In this document: positions 3,719 through 63,887 of the stretch, in pieces
Layout: every line of letters starts with the position of its first letter
Numbering within the stretch: position 1 is the stretch's first letter
Assembly: GCF_029338515.1 (NCBI RefSeq)
Contig: NZ_CP119988.1
Coordinates: forward strand, 2,790,001 to 2,854,000
Length of the DNA: 64,000 bases
Origin: Haloglomus litoreum
GTDB taxonomy: Archaea; Halobacteriota; Halobacteria; Halobacteriales; Haloarculaceae
Reading direction: 5' to 3'
Notes under the pieces: model-generated
The model's input: the letters and a program-made list of their open reading frames with translations, nothing else
Told to the model about the DNA's origin: nothing
Databases searched by the model: none
Position numbers and translations under genes: made by a program

Positions 3719-4645
3719 TCAGGCACCCGTCGTCCGCGCCCTCGAGACGACCGCCAGCAGCGCCTCGTGCTTCACGAGCAGGAAGCCGGCCGCGACCAGC
3801 AGGAACCCCAGCACCGCGCCCGCCGACGGCACGTACCCGAACAGCCCCCAGGCGAGCGCCGCGGCGGTGACCGGTTCGGCGTAGTCGACGAGGCTGGCCT
3901 CGGTCGCACCGACGGTCCCCAGCAGGTAGAAGTAGAGGAGGAAGGCGACGACCCCCGAACCGAGGACGAGGAAGGCGAGCGCGCCGACCGCGGTGGGTGA
4001 CGTGGGCAGCGCCTGTCGCTCGCCGCCCAGGAGGCTCCCCGCGTGGAGCGCGCCGGCGCCGAGGAGCATCCCCCAGCCCTGGAGCGCCCCGGGCGTGAGC
4101 CGCGGCGAGAGTCGGCGGACAAGCACCGTCCCGAGCGCCCACAGCACCGTGGCGCCGAGGATGAGCGCGACGCCAACGGGCGGGGCGGCGCCGACGCTCC
4201 CGGGCGCGCTGACGACGACGACGCCGAGGAACCCGAGCGCGACTCCGCCGTAGCCGGCCGGGGCGAGCCGCTCGTCGTCGAGGAGGACGGCGGCGAACAG
4301 GGCCGTGAGGACCGGCACCAGTGCGACGACCGCCGCGGCGACGGCTCCCGGGACGGTGGTCTGCCCGACGTACAGCAGCGCGTGGTAGCCGGCGATGAGC
4401 AGCGCCCCGACGAGACCGACCGCGAGCAGGTCGTCGCGCGTCCGGGGCAGCCAGACGCCGCGGAGCGCCCCCCACGCGAGCACGAACACGCCCGCGAGGT
4501 CGTACCGGAGCGCGGCGAACAGCAGCGGCGGCACCTCGTCCACCCCGGCCTCGATGGCGACGAACGACCCACCCCAGAGCGTGGCAAGCACGACGAACGC
4601 GAGCCCGACCGTTGGGAACTCGCTCCAACTATCTCCCACAGACAT
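3719..4645 (-). CDS. EamA/DMT family transporter
   Basis: Inner-membrane drug/metabolite transporter of 308 residues with about ten predicted helices arranged as two EamA repeats. The first repeat begins GLAFVVLATLWGGSFVAIE and the second begins VGVALILGATVLWALGTVLV. Substrate is not deducible; relatives export amino acids, purines or other metabolites. It is divergent from an Lrp/AsnC regulator, a common arrangement for amino-acid exporters controlled by the neighbouring regulator. The TATA region TTTAACAA lies about 30 nt before the ATG and falls inside a 16-bp palindrome (4671-4686). Confidence 0.88.
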   Translation of the reverse strand: MSVGDSWSEFPTVGLAFVVLATLWGGSFVAIEAGVDEVPPLLFAALRYDLAGVFVLAWGALRGVWLPRTRDDLLAVGLVGALLIAGYHALLYVGQTTVPGAVAAAVVALVPVLTALFAAVLLDDERLAPAGYGGVALGFLGVVVVSAPGSVGAAPPVGVALILGATVLWALGTVLVRRLSPRLTPGALQGWGMLLGAGALHAGSLLGGERQALPTSPTAVGALAFLVLGSGVVAFLLYFYLLGTVGATEASLVDYAEPVTAAALAWGLFGYVPSAGAVLGFLLVAAGFLLVKHEALLAVVSRARTTGA

Positions 4646-4670
4646 GATTCCAGTTCAACCGAATCGGCGT

Positions 4671-4686
4671 AGAGTTGTTAAACTCT
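4671..4686. promoter_or_regulatory. Palindrome AGAGTT-GTTA-AACTCT over the EamA promoter
   Basis: Two perfect 6-bp inverted arms separated by four bases, centred about 33 nt before the EamA start on the minus strand and covering its TATA-like TTTAACAA. The position fits an operator where a bound dimer blocks TBP access. The divergent Lrp/AsnC gene starts 128 nt away, so its product is the obvious candidate to bind; binding itself is inference. Confidence 0.5.
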
Positions 4687-4813
4687 TCTATCAATGTCGA
4701 GTGGATAGCTGTACCAGATTCGAGGATGATGGCCGGTAGCTAGGACCAGTCCGGATATCGCCGACCACTGTCGGGGACGGTGGAGTATTGGGCCCTCCCC
4801 GGGACCGACCAGT

Positions 4814-5299
4814 ATGGATGAACGCGACGTTCGCATCCTGAAGGCCATCGCGGACCTCGAGACGGGGAGCCCCGAGCGGCTCCACGAGGCGACCGACATC
4901 CCGGTCTCCACGATCCACTACCGGCTGAACAACCTCCGCGAGGCCGGCGTCATCGAGAACGATCTCTACGACTTCGACCTCGACGAACTCGGCCTCGGCG
5001 TGACCGTGCTGGTGGAGGTACTGGCGGACTACTCCGGGCACCACGAGGCCGTCGCCGAGGCGATCCAGGAGATCGAAGGCGTGACACACCTCTTCTCGAC
5101 GATGGGGGAGACGGACTTCGTGGCGCTCGCGCAGCTGCCGGGCGACGACACCGTGGGGGAACTGCTCCGGGCCTTCGAGGAGGTCCCGGAGGTCGAACGG
5201 ACCAACTCGACGTACGTCATCGATACCCTCTACGAGGACGACCGCGCGCTGTCGTCGTACGGTATCGAGTCGCTGCTCTCTCACCTGGCCGACGAGTGA
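4814..5299 (+). CDS. Lrp/AsnC family transcriptional regulator
   Basis: 161-residue DNA-binding regulator. The N-terminal helix-turn-helix runs DERDVRILKAIADLE through PVSTIHYRLNNLREAG (residues 2-45). It is followed by a ligand-binding/oligomerisation domain with the pattern GLGVTVLVEVLADY and GVTHLFSTMGETDFVALAQL. Proteins of this type bind as dimers or octamers to palindromes and usually sense amino acids. Divergent arrangement with the EamA transporter and the palindrome between them suggest it controls that exporter. The ATG at 4814 is used because the HTH begins immediately after it. Confidence 0.92.
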   Translation: MDERDVRILKAIADLETGSPERLHEATDIPVSTIHYRLNNLREAGVIENDLYDFDLDELGLGVTVLVEVLADYSGHHEAVAEAIQEIEGVTHLFSTMGETDFVALAQLPGDDTVGELLRAFEEVPEVERTNSTYVIDTLYEDDRALSSYGIESLLSHLADE

Positions 5300-5402
5300 G
5301 TGGTCGGCGCCGGGGGTCCCCGGTGCGGGTCCGACCCGGCGGCACGGGTGAGGGCCAGCCGCGTCCCGACCATTCAAGCGGGCCGCCGTGGTAGCCCGGT
5401 GC

Positions 5403-7085
5403 ATGTTCGACGAGGAGGACCTCGAAGCGATCCGGACGGGCCACGAGGAGTGGGCGGATGAGACGTACGGCCCGACGGTCGACCGCTTCGGGGAACGCAA
5501 GGAGACGTTCACCACCGACACCGGCGGGACCGAGGTGGACCCGCTGTACACGCCGGCCGACGTGGCCGACCTGGACTACGAGGAGGACCTCGGCAACCCG
5601 GCCGAGCCGCCGTACACGCGGGGTGTCTACTCGACGATGTACCGCGGGCGACTCTGGACGATGCGCCAGTACGCCGGGATGGGCACCGCGCGCGAGACCA
5701 ACGAACGGTTCCACTACCTGATGGACGAGGGCCAGACCGGCCTCTCGATGGCGTTCGACCTGCCCACGCAGATGGGGTACGACTCGGACGCCGACATGGC
5801 CCAGGGCGAGGTCGGGAAGAGCGGCGTCGCCATCGACTCGCTCGACGACTTCGAGACCGTCTTCGACGGCATCCCGCTCGACGAGGTGAGCACGTCGATG
5901 ACCATCAACGCCCCCGCGTCCGTCCTGCTCGCGATGTACATCGCCGTCGGCGACAAACAGGGCGTCGACCGCGAGGAGCTCCGGGGCACTATCCAGAACG
6001 ACGTGCTCAAGGAGTACATCGCGCGTAACACCTTCATCTACCCCCCGGAGCCGTCGATGCGGCTCATCACGGACATCTTCGAGTACGCCGCCGAGGAGAC
6101 GCCGAACTTCAACACCATCTCCATCTCCGGCTACCACATCCGGGAGGCCGGCTCGACCGCGGCCCAGGAGATCGCCTTCACCCTCGGCGACGGCATCGAG
6201 TACGTCGAGGCCGCCATCGAGGCCGGGCAGGACGTCGACGAGTTCGCCCCCCAGTTGAGCTTCTTCTTCGCCTCCTACAACAACATCCTCGAGGAGGTCG
6301 CGAAGTTCCGCGCCGCCCGGCGGATGTGGTACCGGATCATGGAGGAGCGCTTCGACGCCCAGAAGGAGGCCTCGAAGCAGCTGAAGTTCCACACCCAGAC
6401 CGCGGGCTCGACGCTCACCGCCCAGCAGATCGAGAACAACGTCGTCCGCGTGGCCTACCAGGCCCTCGCAGCGGTGCTCGGCGGCACACAGAGCCTCCAC
6501 ACCAACGGGAAGGACGAGGCACTCAGCCTCCCGACGGAGAAGTCCGTGCGGACGGCGCTCCGGACCCAGCAGATCCTCGCCCACGAGTCCGGGGCGGCCG
6601 ACACCATCGACCCGCTCGCCGGGAGCTACTACGTCGAGTCCCTGACCGACGAACTCGAGCAGGAGGCGTTCGACATCCTCGACGAGGTCGACGAGCGCGG
6701 TGGGATGCGCCAGGCCGTCGAGGCGGGCTGGGTCCAGCGCCAGATCCAGGATACGGCGTTCGAGCGCCAGCGCGAGATCGAGGCCGGCGAGCGGACCATC
6801 GTCGGCGTCAACGAGTACCGTGTCGAGGACGAGGAGAAGGCCGAGGACATCGAGGAGGTCTCGGAGGAGGAACAGGAGCGCCAGCGCCAGAACGTCCAGC
6901 AGCTCCGCGAGGAGCGCGACGGCGCGGCCGTCGAGGCCGTGCTGGAGGACCTTCGCGCGGCCTGCGAATCCGACGAGAACGTGATGCCGTACATCGTCGA
7001 CGCGGTCAAGGCATACGCGACGACGGGCGAGATCTGTGACGCGATGCGGGACGTGTTCGGTGAGTACCGTGGGGCGACGGTCTGA
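5403..7085 (+). CDS. mcmA: Methylmalonyl-CoA mutase, large (catalytic) subunit
   Basis: TIM-barrel half of an adenosylcobalamin-dependent acyl-CoA mutase, interconverting succinyl-CoA and (R)-methylmalonyl-CoA. 560 residues from the ATG at 5403; a GTG at 5388 in frame is also possible but less likely. Landmarks are [37 protein letters not shown], the [20 protein letters not shown] segment and [15 protein letters not shown] near the C-terminal third. The B12-binding domain with its DxHxxG motif is absent, as expected for archaeal split enzymes; the small subunit gene is not in this window. A methylmalonyl-CoA epimerase follows 0.6 kb downstream. A related mutase (for example an isobutyryl-CoA type) cannot be excluded. 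Confidence 0.92.
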
Positions 7086-59840: not shown

Positions 59841-60230
59841 GTTCCAGGGTGCGATTGCGCGCCCCAAAACCGGTCCGGCTTCGATGGACGGTGCATCCGT
59901 CACCCCCCGACACGAACCCACACCGCCAGCGTGTGTCCGGGCCGCGAATCGGCGCACATGACGCGAGTCGAATGCGCGCCCGCGCGCTCACCACCAGCGA
60001 CAGCCCGGCTCCCACCACCGCGACCACCACCACCATCGGCGTCACGTCCGGCCTCCCACCAAGGCGGCCGGACAACCCGCTGCCTGACGTGTGTCCGGCC
60101 TCCCACCGGTACACCCACCGTGCACCGGGGGTCGCGCTCTCGCGCTGCCCACCAAGGCGGCCGAACGACCCCGTTCCGTGCTCCGCTCCGTTTGCGGCCG
60201 CCCGCGCGGCCGACCGGGAGCCGTGGCGAG
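59841..60230. other. 390-nt gap with hairpin and CACCAAGGCGG repeats, no gene seen
   Basis: GC-rich. Frames open but look like noise. It has the hairpin at 60046-60073 and two further partial copies of its sequence (60092-60107 and 60149-60178). Confidence 0.55.
60046..60073. repeat. Hairpin GTCCGGCC...GGCCGGAC with CCACCAAGG loop, REP-like
   Basis: Perfect 8-bp stem around a 12-nt loop (TCCCACCAAGGC). The loop side CCCACCAAGGCGGCCG reappears at 60151-60166, and TGTCCGGCCTCCCACC at 60092-60107. Such units could be REP-like elements or terminators for the convergent genes on either side. Confidence 0.5.
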
Positions 60231-60881
60231 CTACTGGACCAGGCCGGAGACGACGCGTGACTCGGCCTTGCGCAGGTGCTCGTCGACGGTCGAGGGGGCA
60301 CAGCCGAGGTTGTCGGCGATGTCCTTGTGCGTCGCGCGCCGCGGGACGTCGTAGTAGCCCTCCTCGACGGCCGTCTCGAAGACCTCCAGCTGGCGGTCCG
60401 TCAGCGGCGAGAGCAGGTCCTCTCCACCGGGGACGTACGGACCGGCGTTCTCGACGGTGAAGTCGAGCGCGCTCGGCAGCTGGCCCAGGGCCTCGCGCAG
60501 GTTCCCGTGCGTGCCGACGAGCGTCGCCTTGAGGCCGCCCTCGGTGAACTCCAGCGGCGTGTCGATGATGAGGGCGTTCTCGTGGGCGATCTCGAGCAGG
60601 GCACTCCCGTCGTCCGGGGAGTCGGCCTGGACGAACGCGTGGAACCCCTCCTCCTCGACCTCGACGACGTCGTAGTCGCGGACGCTGGCCCGCTGGGAGA
60701 GCGCGGTCTCGAACGAGTCACGGTCGCCCAGTAGCCGGTACAGCAGGACGGTCGTCCCGTCGGCCCGTGCGTCGACGTGGAGGAGCTCCTCTCGCGTGAC
60801 GCTCCGGTGCCCCTCGATGAACCGGTCGACTGGGTGGATCGCGCGGTGCGTGGGTGACAGCGTGAGTTTGAGGTACTGCAT
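60231..60881 (-). CDS. Bat-type transcriptional regulator with HTH-10 domain
   Basis: 216 residues. N-terminal domain (residues 1-155) of the bacterio-opsin-activator kind with QYLKLTLSPTHRAIHPVDRF. The C-terminal HTH is LTDRQLEVFETAVEEGYYDV then ATHKDIADNLGCAPSTVDEH. The N-terminal part lacks PAS or GAF, so the ligand is unknown. TATA-like TTTAACCC lies about 50 nt upstream. Confidence 0.88.
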   Translation of the reverse strand: MQYLKLTLSPTHRAIHPVDRFIEGHRSVTREELLHVDARADGTTVLLYRLLGDRDSFETALSQRASVRDYDVVEVEEEGFHAFVQADSPDDGSALLEIAHENALIIDTPLEFTEGGLKATLVGTHGNLREALGQLPSALDFTVENAGPYVPGGEDLLSPLTDRQLEVFETAVEEGYYDVPRRATHKDIADNLGCAPSTVDEHLRKAESRVVSGLVQ

Positions 60882-61225
60882 TGTTGTTATGCCCCGGTTG
60901 CTCCCGGTGTACCTCCATCTGGATGCTACGGGTTAAAGAAGAAATTGACAACTGCGTCCAAAGGTTAGGTAGAGCGCCTCTAACCCAAGAATTCTACCCC
61001 AGGACCGATCGAAGGGGTACTTGAACACCCGGTGGAAACCTGGCACCCCATTTACCAGCGGTCGGCAGTCGCTGGGGGGTCGTTCCCCCGACGGCTCCGG
61101 CCATCCCGCCGACGTGAGCGCCGGAGGCCGGGCAACTGACCGGCGGCGGGCCGACGCAGCGGGGAGCATCCGGTGCACGCGCGCAGAGCATAACGACTAT
61201 GCGCGGGCCAATCCGAGTTCGGGGT
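60882..61225. other. 344-nt divergent intergenic region, no gene seen
   Basis: Between the Bat-type regulator and the DUF5785 gene. It has an AT-rich stretch at 60930-60950 (AAAGAAGAAATTGAC) for the left promoter and a GCATAACGACTATG element near 61190 for the right. Otherwise GC-rich. Confidence 0.6.
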
Positions 61226-61534
61226 ATGAGCGACTGGCCGCACGACCCCGACGGCGAGGAGGGGAGCGAGGGGATGCGCAAGTACGGACAGGCCATCCTC
61301 GCGAAGAAGCTCGACGAGGAGGAGGACTTCCCCCTCGAGCGCGACGCGTTCGTCGAGGAGTACGGCGATCACCCGGTCCGGCTGAACCACGACCGCGTCG
61401 TCAGCGTGGCCGACATCATGGAACACGTCGAGGAGGCGGAGTTCGAGGACTTCGTGGCGTTCCACAAGGCGGTCGGACACGCGATGCGCGAGAACGATAT
61501 GTGGGAGATCACGCCCGAGGAGATCGGTCGGTAG
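61226..61534 (+). CDS. DUF5785-like protein
   Basis: 102 residues, acidic and mostly helical: SDWPHDPDGEEGSEGMRKYG, AILAKKLDEEEDFPLERDAF and FVAFHKAVGHAMRENDMWEI. It resembles a conserved haloarchaeal family (DUF5785) of unknown function. The ATG at 61226 is chosen since the conserved part starts there. Confidence 0.75.
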   Translation: MSDWPHDPDGEEGSEGMRKYGQAILAKKLDEEEDFPLERDAFVEEYGDHPVRLNHDRVVSVADIMEHVEEAEFEDFVAFHKAVGHAMRENDMWEITPEEIGR

Positions 61535-61665
61535 CCGCACGGAGACCGGGCCGACGGCCCGCCCCCGGCCCCGAACTCGACAGCGCCACCGAGCGGCCGC
61601 ACCGAACCACATCTCGGAACCGTGAACGGTAACGCATTTACTACGCACCCCCGGAGTCTCCGGCA

Positions 61666-62439
61666 GTGACGAACACGCAGGTCACCCTCGTTCAGATCGA
61701 CAACTACGGGCCGTGGACGGTCACGCCGGAACCGCGTCGCGAGGTCGACCTCCAGACGCTCCAGTCCCGGCTGTACGCAGACCTCTCGCAGCTCATCGGC
61801 AACCGCGACGGGTACGTCTTCTTCACCCGCTTCGACAACATGATCGCGGTCACCAACGGGCTGGACCGCGAGGCCCACGCCCTGGTCCAGGAGTCGGTCG
61901 CGAACCGGTACCCGGTGACGGTGTCGCTGGGTGTTGCAACCGACCCCTCGCCCGCTGCCGCGCTCGGTGACGCGACGGACCTCCTGCAGGCCGCCGGCAG
62001 CGCCCAGGACGAGGACCGGACCCAGATCCTCGGTGGCGGGTTCCTCGCCGAGGACGACCGCACCGACGATGACGTCCAGATCGCCCACTTCGACGTGATC
62101 GACGCCACCGGGAAGTACACGGACCGGCTCAACGCCTTCGACTCGTTCATCCAGATCGAGCAGGGGTACGCCGAACTGATGCGGCATATGCGCCGGGCGC
62201 ACGACTCGCTGTCGTTCTTCGTCGGCGGCGACAACGTCATCGCGGTCTGTCCGGACCTGGACCGGGCCGCCTACCGCGACGCCGTCGACCACGTCGCCGG
62301 CGAGGTCGACGTCGACCTGCAGGTGGGCGTCGGCCGTGCGAGAACCGCGCAGGATGCCGGGATGGGCGCGAAGCACGCCCTGGAGACCTGCCGGCACGAG
62401 GGCACGACCGTCGAGTTCGCGGACGGCCACGAGATTTAA
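61666..62439 (+). CDS. gch3: GTP cyclohydrolase III (IIa)
   Basis: 257 residues, GTG start. Archaeal enzyme that opens GTP to 2-amino-5-formylamino-6-ribosylamino-pyrimidinone 5'-phosphate, entering riboflavin and F420 synthesis. It has two nucleotidyl-cyclase-like repeats: VTLVQIDNYGPWTVTPEPRR with GYVFFTRFDNMIAVTNGLD, and IAHFDVIDATGKYTDRLNAF with LSFFVGGDNVIAVCPDLD. The GGDN and paired Asp fit the family metal site. Length matches. Confidence 0.92.
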   Translation: MTNTQVTLVQIDNYGPWTVTPEPRREVDLQTLQSRLYADLSQLIGNRDGYVFFTRFDNMIAVTNGLDREAHALVQESVANRYPVTVSLGVATDPSPAAALGDATDLLQAAGSAQDEDRTQILGGGFLAEDDRTDDDVQIAHFDVIDATGKYTDRLNAFDSFIQIEQGYAELMRHMRRAHDSLSFFVGGDNVIAVCPDLDRAAYRDAVDHVAGEVDVDLQVGVGRARTAQDAGMGAKHALETCRHEGTTVEFADGHEI

Positions 62440-62524
62440 TACACCGGGACGCTCCGGTGTTCCGCCCCGAATGTGGGGAAAGGAACCGCTGTATGGTGAA
62501 ATCCGGGTTTCATCTTTGACAGAC

Positions 62525-62532
62525 TTTATATA
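62525..62532 (+). promoter_or_regulatory. TATA box TTTATATA for the binding-protein gene
   Basis: Centre about 31 nt before the ATG at 62559; a second AT-rich AATATAAG follows. Strong promoter with a very short leader. Confidence 0.7.
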
Positions 62533-62558
62533 TTCTCCAATATAAGGGAACAGTTGAC

Positions 62559-63887
62559 ATGACACGGGAATACCGACGTCGTGATGTAGTGAAAGGTGCT
62601 GCCGGTCTCGGTGCTGTCGCGGGAGTCGCCGGCTGCACGCAGCTGGGTGGCGATGGCGGTGACGGTGGCGGTGGTGACGGCGGTGACGGTGGTGACGGTG
62701 GCTCCGGGGGAGCAGAGGCACTCGTCGTCATCGGCTATCCGGAGTCCGGGGTCCAGCTGTTCAAGGACTTCTACAGCGACTTCGACACCGACGTGCCCAT
62801 CTTCGTCACTGACGGCCTGAAGGCCCCGGAACTGCCGGGGCAGGTCGGCAACGACATGAGCAACGTGACGGGGACGGCCCCGACCGCGGCCGGGCCGGGC
62901 CAGGAGTTCTTCACCAACCGATTCCAGGAGGAGTTCGGTGCCGAGCCGGGCGTGTTCACCTCGCAGGCGTACGACGCCAGCGCGGTCCTGATGCTCGCCA
63001 ACCTCGCCGCCGGTGAGAACAACGGGAAGGCCGTCCGCGACCAGATGCGCGCGGTCGCCAACCCGAGTGGCGAGGAGTTCGGTCCGTCCGAACTCGCCGA
63101 CGCCGTGGAGGCCGTCGCGGCCGGCGACGACATCAACTACGCCGGTGCCTCCTCGTCGGTCAACTTCGACGAGAACGGCGACATGCGCGCGGTCACCTAC
63201 GAGGTGTTCGGCTTCACCTCCGACGGCGTGACCCAGCAGAGCACCATCGACTTCGGCGGTGGTGGCGGCGATGGCGGCTCCTCCGCCGACTACCCCGGCT
63301 CCTCGTCGGGCCGCACCGTGAAGTTCGGCGTCCTGATGCCGCTCACCGGCGACCTCGCCCCGGTCGGGAAGCCGATCCGCGACGGTGCCATCCTGCCGGC
63401 CCGCCAGCTCGAGGGGAACACGGACTTCACCTTCGACTACCAGGTCGAGGACACGCAGACCAACCCCGACGCCGGGGTCTCGGCCGCGGAGACGCTGGTC
63501 AACGCCGGCTACCCGGCGGTCACCGGCCCGGCCTCCTCCGGTGTGAACCTGCAGGTCTCGAAGCAGGTCTTCATCCCGAGCAAGGTCGTCGGCTGCTCGC
63601 CCTCCTCGACCTCGCCCACCGTGACGACGCTCGAGGACAACGACTACATCTACCGGACGCCGCCGAGCGACGCGCTGCAGGGCCAGGTCCTCGCACAGCT
63701 GGCTGCCGACAACGACGTCTCCAGCGTCTCCACGCTGTACGTCAACAACGACTACGGCCAGGCGCTCAGCCAGTCGTTCAAGAAGGCCTTCGAGGACAAC
63801 CACGACGGCACCGTGCCCCAGCAGGTCGCCTTCGAGAAGCAGAAGTCCTCGTACACCTCGCAGCTCAACACGGCGCTCGGGCAGTAA
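62559..63887 (+). CDS. Leu/Ile/Val-type substrate-binding lipoprotein, circularly permuted order
   Basis: 442 residues. Tat signal YRRRDVVKGAAGLGAVAGVAGC with lipobox (Cys26), then a Gly/Asp linker. The receptor halves are in reverse of the usual order. Residues about 52-228 match the usual C-terminal half (EALVVIGYPESGVQLFKDFY, FTSQAYDASAVLMLANLAAG, VNFDENGDMRAVTYEVFGFT). A Gly/Ser linker follows, and residues 254-442 match the N-terminal half (VKFGVLMPLTGDLAPVGKPI, YPAVTGPASSGVNLQ, YVNNDYGQALSQSFKKAF). The join in a normal protein, SQLNTALGQ to EALVVIGY, is at the two ends here. It should bind an amino acid or similar ligand; no permease genes are seen before the window end. Confidence 0.88.
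   Translation: MTREYRRRDVVKGAAGLGAVAGVAGCTQLGGDGGDGGGGDGGDGGDGGSGGAEALVVIGYPESGVQLFKDFYSDFDTDVPIFVTDGLKAPELPGQVGNDMSNVTGTAPTAAGPGQEFFTNRFQEEFGAEPGVFTSQAYDASAVLMLANLAAGENNGKAVRDQMRAVANPSGEEFGPSELADAVEAVAAGDDINYAGASSSVNFDENGDMRAVTYEVFGFTSDGVTQQSTIDFGGGGGDGGSSADYPGSSSGRTVKFGVLMPLTGDLAPVGKPIRDGAILPARQLEGNTDFTFDYQVEDTQTNPDAGVSAAETLVNAGYPAVTGPASSGVNLQVSKQVFIPSKVVGCSPSSTSPTVTTLEDNDYIYRTPPSDALQGQVLAQLAADNDVSSVSTLYVNNDYGQALSQSFKKAFEDNHDGTVPQQVAFEKQKSSYTSQLNTALGQ

Follow-up and report, generated by a model that had tools for sequence, protein, structure and literature searches.

The question raised by the ORF at 62559-63887 of a 64,000-nucleotide stretch of the Haloglomus litoreum genome (contig NZ_CP119988.1; hereafter the window) is whether it encodes a Leu/Ile/Val (Liv)-type binding protein (SBP) whose two halves have changed places and, if so, how often and by what route the order of the chain has changed. 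Natural circular permutations are usually ancient and are seen only between very distant proteins, and therefore their route and fitness cost cannot be studied. In what follows, P1 denotes the order found in the window and P2 a second rotation. We consider it very probable that the ORF specifies the SBP of a Liv importer with a permuted chain, that the normal order is ancestral, that the order at this locus changed several times, and that P2 was rotated again. The features of the gene and its surroundings are as follows.

61666-62439, plus strand: GTP cyclohydrolase III (GCH3) gene, which is conserved on the upstream side of the SBP gene (Pfam GCH_III, E 1.2e-85)
62525-62532, plus strand: TATA-like box TTTATATA, about 30 bases 5' of the ATG, read directly from the sequence
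62559-63887, plus strand: SBP ORF of 442 aa, a predicted Tat-type lipoprotein whose mature part is a permuted Liv-type SBP
62559-62633, plus strand: Tat-type (twin-arginine) lipoprotein signal peptide MTREYRRRDVVKGAAGLGAVAGVAG, weak match to Pfam TAT_signal
62634-62636, plus strand: lipobox Cys, residue 26 (AVAGVAGC), predicted lipid anchor
62637-62711, plus strand: Gly/Asp-rich tether, residues 27-51
62712-63242, plus strand: first half of the mature chain (half B, residues 52-228), equivalent to the C-terminal half of a normal Liv-type SBP
63243-63314, plus strand: new Gly/Ser linker FGGGGGDGGSSADYPGSSSGR from the old C-terminus to the old N-terminus, residues 229-252
63315-63884, plus strand: last half of the mature chain (half A, residues 253-442), equivalent to the N-terminal half of a normal Liv-type SBP

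The position of the TATA-like box suggests that a nearly leaderless transcript would be made from this putative promoter. The match of the signal peptide to TAT_signal (E 0.0048) is under the family cut-off; the peptide is specific to the genus and also precedes the normal-order SBPs of three relatives (G001, G003 and G004). The protein would be lipidated and anchored to the membrane via Cys26.

In its native order the protein aligned to Peripla_BP_6 in two stretches totalling more than the gathering score, the better of which (residues 253-438, in half A) corresponded to profile positions 1-185. Using phmmer against PDB 3td9, two inverted pieces were obtained, residues 252-440 matching 15-201 and residues 81-187, in half B, matching 233-345. 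The canonical order of Liv/HAAT type I SBPs, with the N-lobe strand first, is absent, the order in the window being inverted. A rotated construct (residues 251-442, then 52-230 onward, with the linker taken out) gave a single continuous match to 3td9 (2-328 to 15-345, E 1.4e-16) and a single stretch against Peripla_BP_6 (profile 1-311 of 343, E 5e-33). Near-complete coverage of this profile was reached only after rotation. An earlier note on this DNA had proposed that the halves of a Leu/Ile/Val-type SBP are reversed and that aligning them in swapped order against the Peripla_BP_6 family would reveal it; the two inverted pieces and the uninterrupted match after rotation bear this out. The note was also right in placing the C-terminal half early; this half comprises residues 52-228 and is not confined to residues about 175-215, where the note had located the FDENGD part.

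The same exchange is seen in the DNA. The window is collinear with the normal-order locus L163 (genome G001) over 60193-62701 at 83.6% DNA identity, that is, through GCH3, the promoter region and the signal peptide into the tether, inside which collinearity stops. Past the tether, window 62721-63201 (half B) corresponds to L163 5748-6228 and window 63331-63878 (half A) to L163 5191-5729; the two sequences become collinear again at 64040, within LivF, so that nothing but the two halves is exchanged. In L163 the equivalent of the last residues of the window SBP ends at 5729 and that of its first mature residues begins at 5748, with 19 bases between them, in agreement with the earlier statement that these residues would normally be joined. 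In L161, one of the two closest normal-order homologues, half B matches 5598-6136 and half A 5038-5587, and each half is 67-75% identical to its counterpart.

The fold was predicted with AlphaFold2, using an alignment of 54 permuted homologues and residues 50-442 of the window SBP. The model had a mean pLDDT of 89.9 and a pTM of 0.85, and the only run with pLDDT below 50 lay in part of the new linker (model residues 186-190). Foldseek matched it to LivJ/LivK structures, but in sequence order the alignment took in only about 193 of its 393 residues, with a TMq of about 0.4. As a control, L161 was modelled in the same way (pLDDT 91.9, pTM 0.90) and aligned with 3td9 over 377 columns (TMq 0.82). 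Since the model is confident and its list of strands and helices is a rotation of that of the control, the prediction confirms a single bilobed type I domain with a rotated chain, rather than the two separate incomplete domains that the earlier note had named as the alternative outcome. The motifs ASSG, SPSST, GYPESG and DGL in the pocket region are conserved, as are residues of both halves, and the ligand would be a branched-chain or related amino acid.

The search of haloarchaeal genomes for the same order made use of a doubled-core query, to which any rotation aligns unbroken and for which the start of the match shows the cut site. It was applied to 148 genomes from the family of the window and to 394 from its order. 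P1 was found in about 48 genomes of the family and, as a count of the rows listed, in at least 40 further genomes, giving roughly 90 sampled haloarchaeal genomes in eight families in all, a few of them seen only outside the two scans. Among them are the named isolates Haloarcula sebkhae, Haloarcula argentinensis, Haloarcula japonica, Haloarcula salina and Haloarcula mannanilytica. Dozens of separate assemblies carry the window order as one continuous match, 53-63% identical. Since the homologues from the same phylum outside Halobacteriales (28-38% identical) are all in normal order among the matches listed, the distribution of these sequences indicates that the normal order is ancestral. Profile searches report the permuted SBP as an incomplete protein, of which annotators should be warned.

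Two further permuted genes were observed in the course of this work. A divergent SBP from another family of the order (L172; G212:C1:3193774-3194934) is 49% identical and joins clade d with G045. In genome G290 the permuted SBP gene (L171, 3076-5871, plus strand) is split by about 1.4 kb containing a transposase-like ORF (4198-5364), as read by eye.

An assembly or annotation artefact, in the form of a misassembled tandem duplicate or a collapsed repeat, might be suspected because Gly/Asp-coding repeats lie on both sides of the first half (B) in the window DNA. We rate the chance of this as practically nil, and misassembly is rejected because independent genomes, the Haloarcula isolates included, carry the same order. 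In addition, the contig of the window is a single 4.70 Mb chromosome, and in the permuted lineages the reading frame is open and under purifying selection. The natural circular permutation put forward in the earlier note thus has the support of sequence, DNA collinearity, fold prediction with a normal-order control, and orthologues. What the note did not see is how widely haloarchaea carry this order, the second cut site and the recurrence of the change.

Four genes lie 3' of the SBP gene on the opposite strand, just past the window, and were assigned by Pfam to LivF, LivG, LivM and LivH. Most of the fetched loci read GCH3 and SBP on one strand, converging on LivF, LivG, LivM and LivH on the other, or the same without GCH3 in range, and this arrangement is alike for normal, P1 and P2 genes. 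From its neighbourhood, the SBP would serve a branched-chain-amino-acid-type ABC importer with the adjoining LivFGMH proteins. A permuted SBP could have left the importer for another role, for example as a sensor, given that ligand and partner are assigned from sequence. This seems improbable in view of the complete LivFGMH set that stays beside normal, P1 and P2 genes, the residues conserved in both halves and the low dN/dS values (0.04-0.32), which point to purifying selection on all forms.

Both orders occur within the genus of the window: the window and G002 have P1, and G001, G003 and G004 have the normal order. Comparison of L162, L163, L164 and window 60193-62701 revealed that GCH3, the signal peptide and the tether are conserved in this genus, and that the mature SBP belongs to three lineages with two orders. 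The pattern resembles a replacement of the mature domain, with one boundary of the exchange lying inside the Gly/Asp tether.

To count the changes of order, a tree was built from 129 SBP homologues, each first rotated to a common order. The permuted proteins fall in separate places: the window, genus g5, a Haloarcula-type clade, clade c and the large clade d. The window stands beside the normal-order L122 and L161, and clade c is sister to the normal-order L101. Parsimony on the outgroup-rooted tree required a minimum of five order changes (bootstrap range 4-5) and two more for P2; some backbone branches of this tree are weak. AU tests rejected a single clade of all permuted proteins (dlnL 143, p 3.7e-9), a grouping of c with d (p 0.003), and one of c with the window, g5 and Haloarcula-type proteins (p 0.0001), and were marginal for d with window, g5 and Haloarcula-type (p 0.039). 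Window with g5 and Haloarcula-type (p 0.16), d with Haloarcula-type (p 0.11) and window with g5 were not rejected. These subgroup hypotheses were picked after the tree was seen. Trees of the A-half and the B-half separately gave the same main groups, and a mosaic origin by swapping of halves was discarded on this concurrence. The tree of LivF and LivG, proteins untouched by permutation, gave the same pairings, placing the window beside L161 and clade c beside L101 and L097. Since the permuted proteins do not form one clade and the tree of the neighbouring ATPases agrees, the order at this locus changed several times within Halobacteria, by repeated permutation, reversal or both.

P2 was found in five genomes (G016, G035, G160, G163 and G169). 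In it the first strand-helix unit alone is shifted to the C-terminus, behind a P1-type linker. The genes are located as follows.

L121, 4986-6407, minus strand: P2 gene
L102, 4755-6161, minus strand: P2 gene
L103, 4980-6674, minus strand: P2 gene
L104, 4977-6422, minus strand: P2 gene
L105, 4731-6188, plus strand: P2 gene

Because the P1-type linker is kept, P2 is a further rotation of an already permuted protein. It forms two separate lineages on both the SBP and the LivFG tree, both within clade d, and P2 as a single clade was rejected by the AU test (p 0.0003).

The linkers bear on how many of the changes may have been gains and how many reversals. Those of the window, g5, Haloarcula-type and clade d proteins are closer to each other than to most normal N-termini, and have in common a PGSxSxRTVxxG-like segment that most normal N-termini do not have. 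This likeness across the four groups favours fewer origins with reversals. An alternative history would have a single early permutation in Halobacteria followed by several reversals, or replacements by a normal-order allele, with the scatter on the tree being due to reversal. It gains from these linkers, from the AU tests that left window, g5 and Haloarcula-type, or d and Haloarcula-type, together, and from the replacement of mature domains at one locus that is visible within genus g1. We regard it as possible but rather unlikely, since clade c lies nested among normal-order proteins whether the tree is made from the SBP, its halves or LivFG, its placement as sister to other permuted groups was rejected (p 0.003 and p 0.0001), and its linker best resembles the N-terminal segment of its normal-order sister L101. 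One gain would also cost more than the five changes counted by parsimony, because the normal order is universal outside the order among the homologues listed from the same phylum. P1 therefore likely had at least two origins, clade c and the rest, and the normal-order L122 and L161 nested next to the window represent either a further origin or a reversal. On balance we lean towards regarding the locus as a permutation hot spot, at which the same loop was cut independently at least twice, P2 was re-rotated, reversal possibly occurred, and all forms were kept under purifying selection beside the same importer.

The P1 cut is always in the same helix-strand loop, and the old ends are joined by a linker of about 20 residues. 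This helix-to-strand loop belongs to the C-lobe (the cut falls between SYTSxLxxAL and PDxLxVIGYP), the linker between the old ends is a flexible Gly/Ser one, and the fold and the conserved pocket motifs are unchanged. The membrane tether would then lead into the N-lobe in the normal form, into the C-lobe in P1 and into the N-lobe again in P2. The probable route is duplication, fusion and trimming, the classical route of permutation (reviewed in PMC3320104). This route is compatible with the tether rich in Gly, where the fusion could have taken place, with the tandem SBP genes of G229 and G315, and with the linker of clade c. In L143 (3365-6176, plus strand) and L158 (3339-6170, plus strand) two permuted copies of the SBP gene follow one another between GCH3 and the Liv operon and may represent the duplication stage; the ORFs of the fetched loci included no fused A-B-A-B intermediate. 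Perhaps lipoproteins tolerate rotation because their tether is long and flexible, which may make the position of the chain ends nearly neutral. A link between tethering and permuted topology has also been proposed for TpMglB-2 (PMC4990184). Fission and fusion, in which two genes, one for each half, were joined in the opposite order, is likewise a recognised permutation route (PMC3320104). It appears very improbable here: among the fetched loci no homologue has a half-length SBP gene beside it, the handful of partial matches met contig ends, a frame break or an insertion, and at this locus the close relatives carry intact genes in normal order.

TpMglB-2 (Tp0684) of Treponema pallidum is the first member of a proposed class of ligand-binding proteins, "Type Ic / Cluster Bc". 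It is a naturally permuted type I SBP with a lipid tether, serves an ABC importer, and is reported still to bind its ligand, glucose, and to change conformation (PMC4990184). Its N-lobe is cut, with the first three N-lobe strands moved to the C-terminus, and the permuted part is 13% identical to EcMglB (PMC4990184). The window SBP is likewise of type I, naturally permuted and assigned to an ABC importer, with a predicted lipid tether. It does not have the TpMglB-2-type cut after N-lobe strand 3, and TpMglB-2 was not among the PDB sequence or fold matches listed for it. In contrast to TpMglB-2, the haloarchaeal proteins are Liv-type, with the cut in the C-lobe for P1 and behind the first strand-helix unit for P2; their halves reach 67-75% identity to the normal-order orthologues from the same locus, and their order has changed repeatedly. 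With LivJ/LivK (PDB 3td9, 4gnr, 4n0q and 1usg) they share the fold, the Pfam family and the transporter neighbourhood, but those proteins have the normal order and a tether leading into the N-lobe. In the open-access literature searched, we found no report of permuted Liv-type or permuted haloarchaeal SBPs, and TpMglB-2 is the one natural permuted type I SBP known earlier.

The permuted families of DNA methyltransferases and of saposin/swaposin are divergent. They resemble the present case in that natural permutations within one family have left more than one order among relatives, and they were permuted by duplication (PMC3320104). The haloarchaeal case differs from them in that a single orthologous locus shows three orders in close relatives, and one genus contains two of these. 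This recurrence is new and surprising, as is the finding that three orders coexist at such a locus. Close homologues, partly from one genus, are available here in normal, permuted and re-permuted order, and the locus is a natural experiment on how proteins are cut, rejoined and still fold. The haloarchaeal SBPs also offer a ready supply of naturally permuted binding proteins for sensor design.
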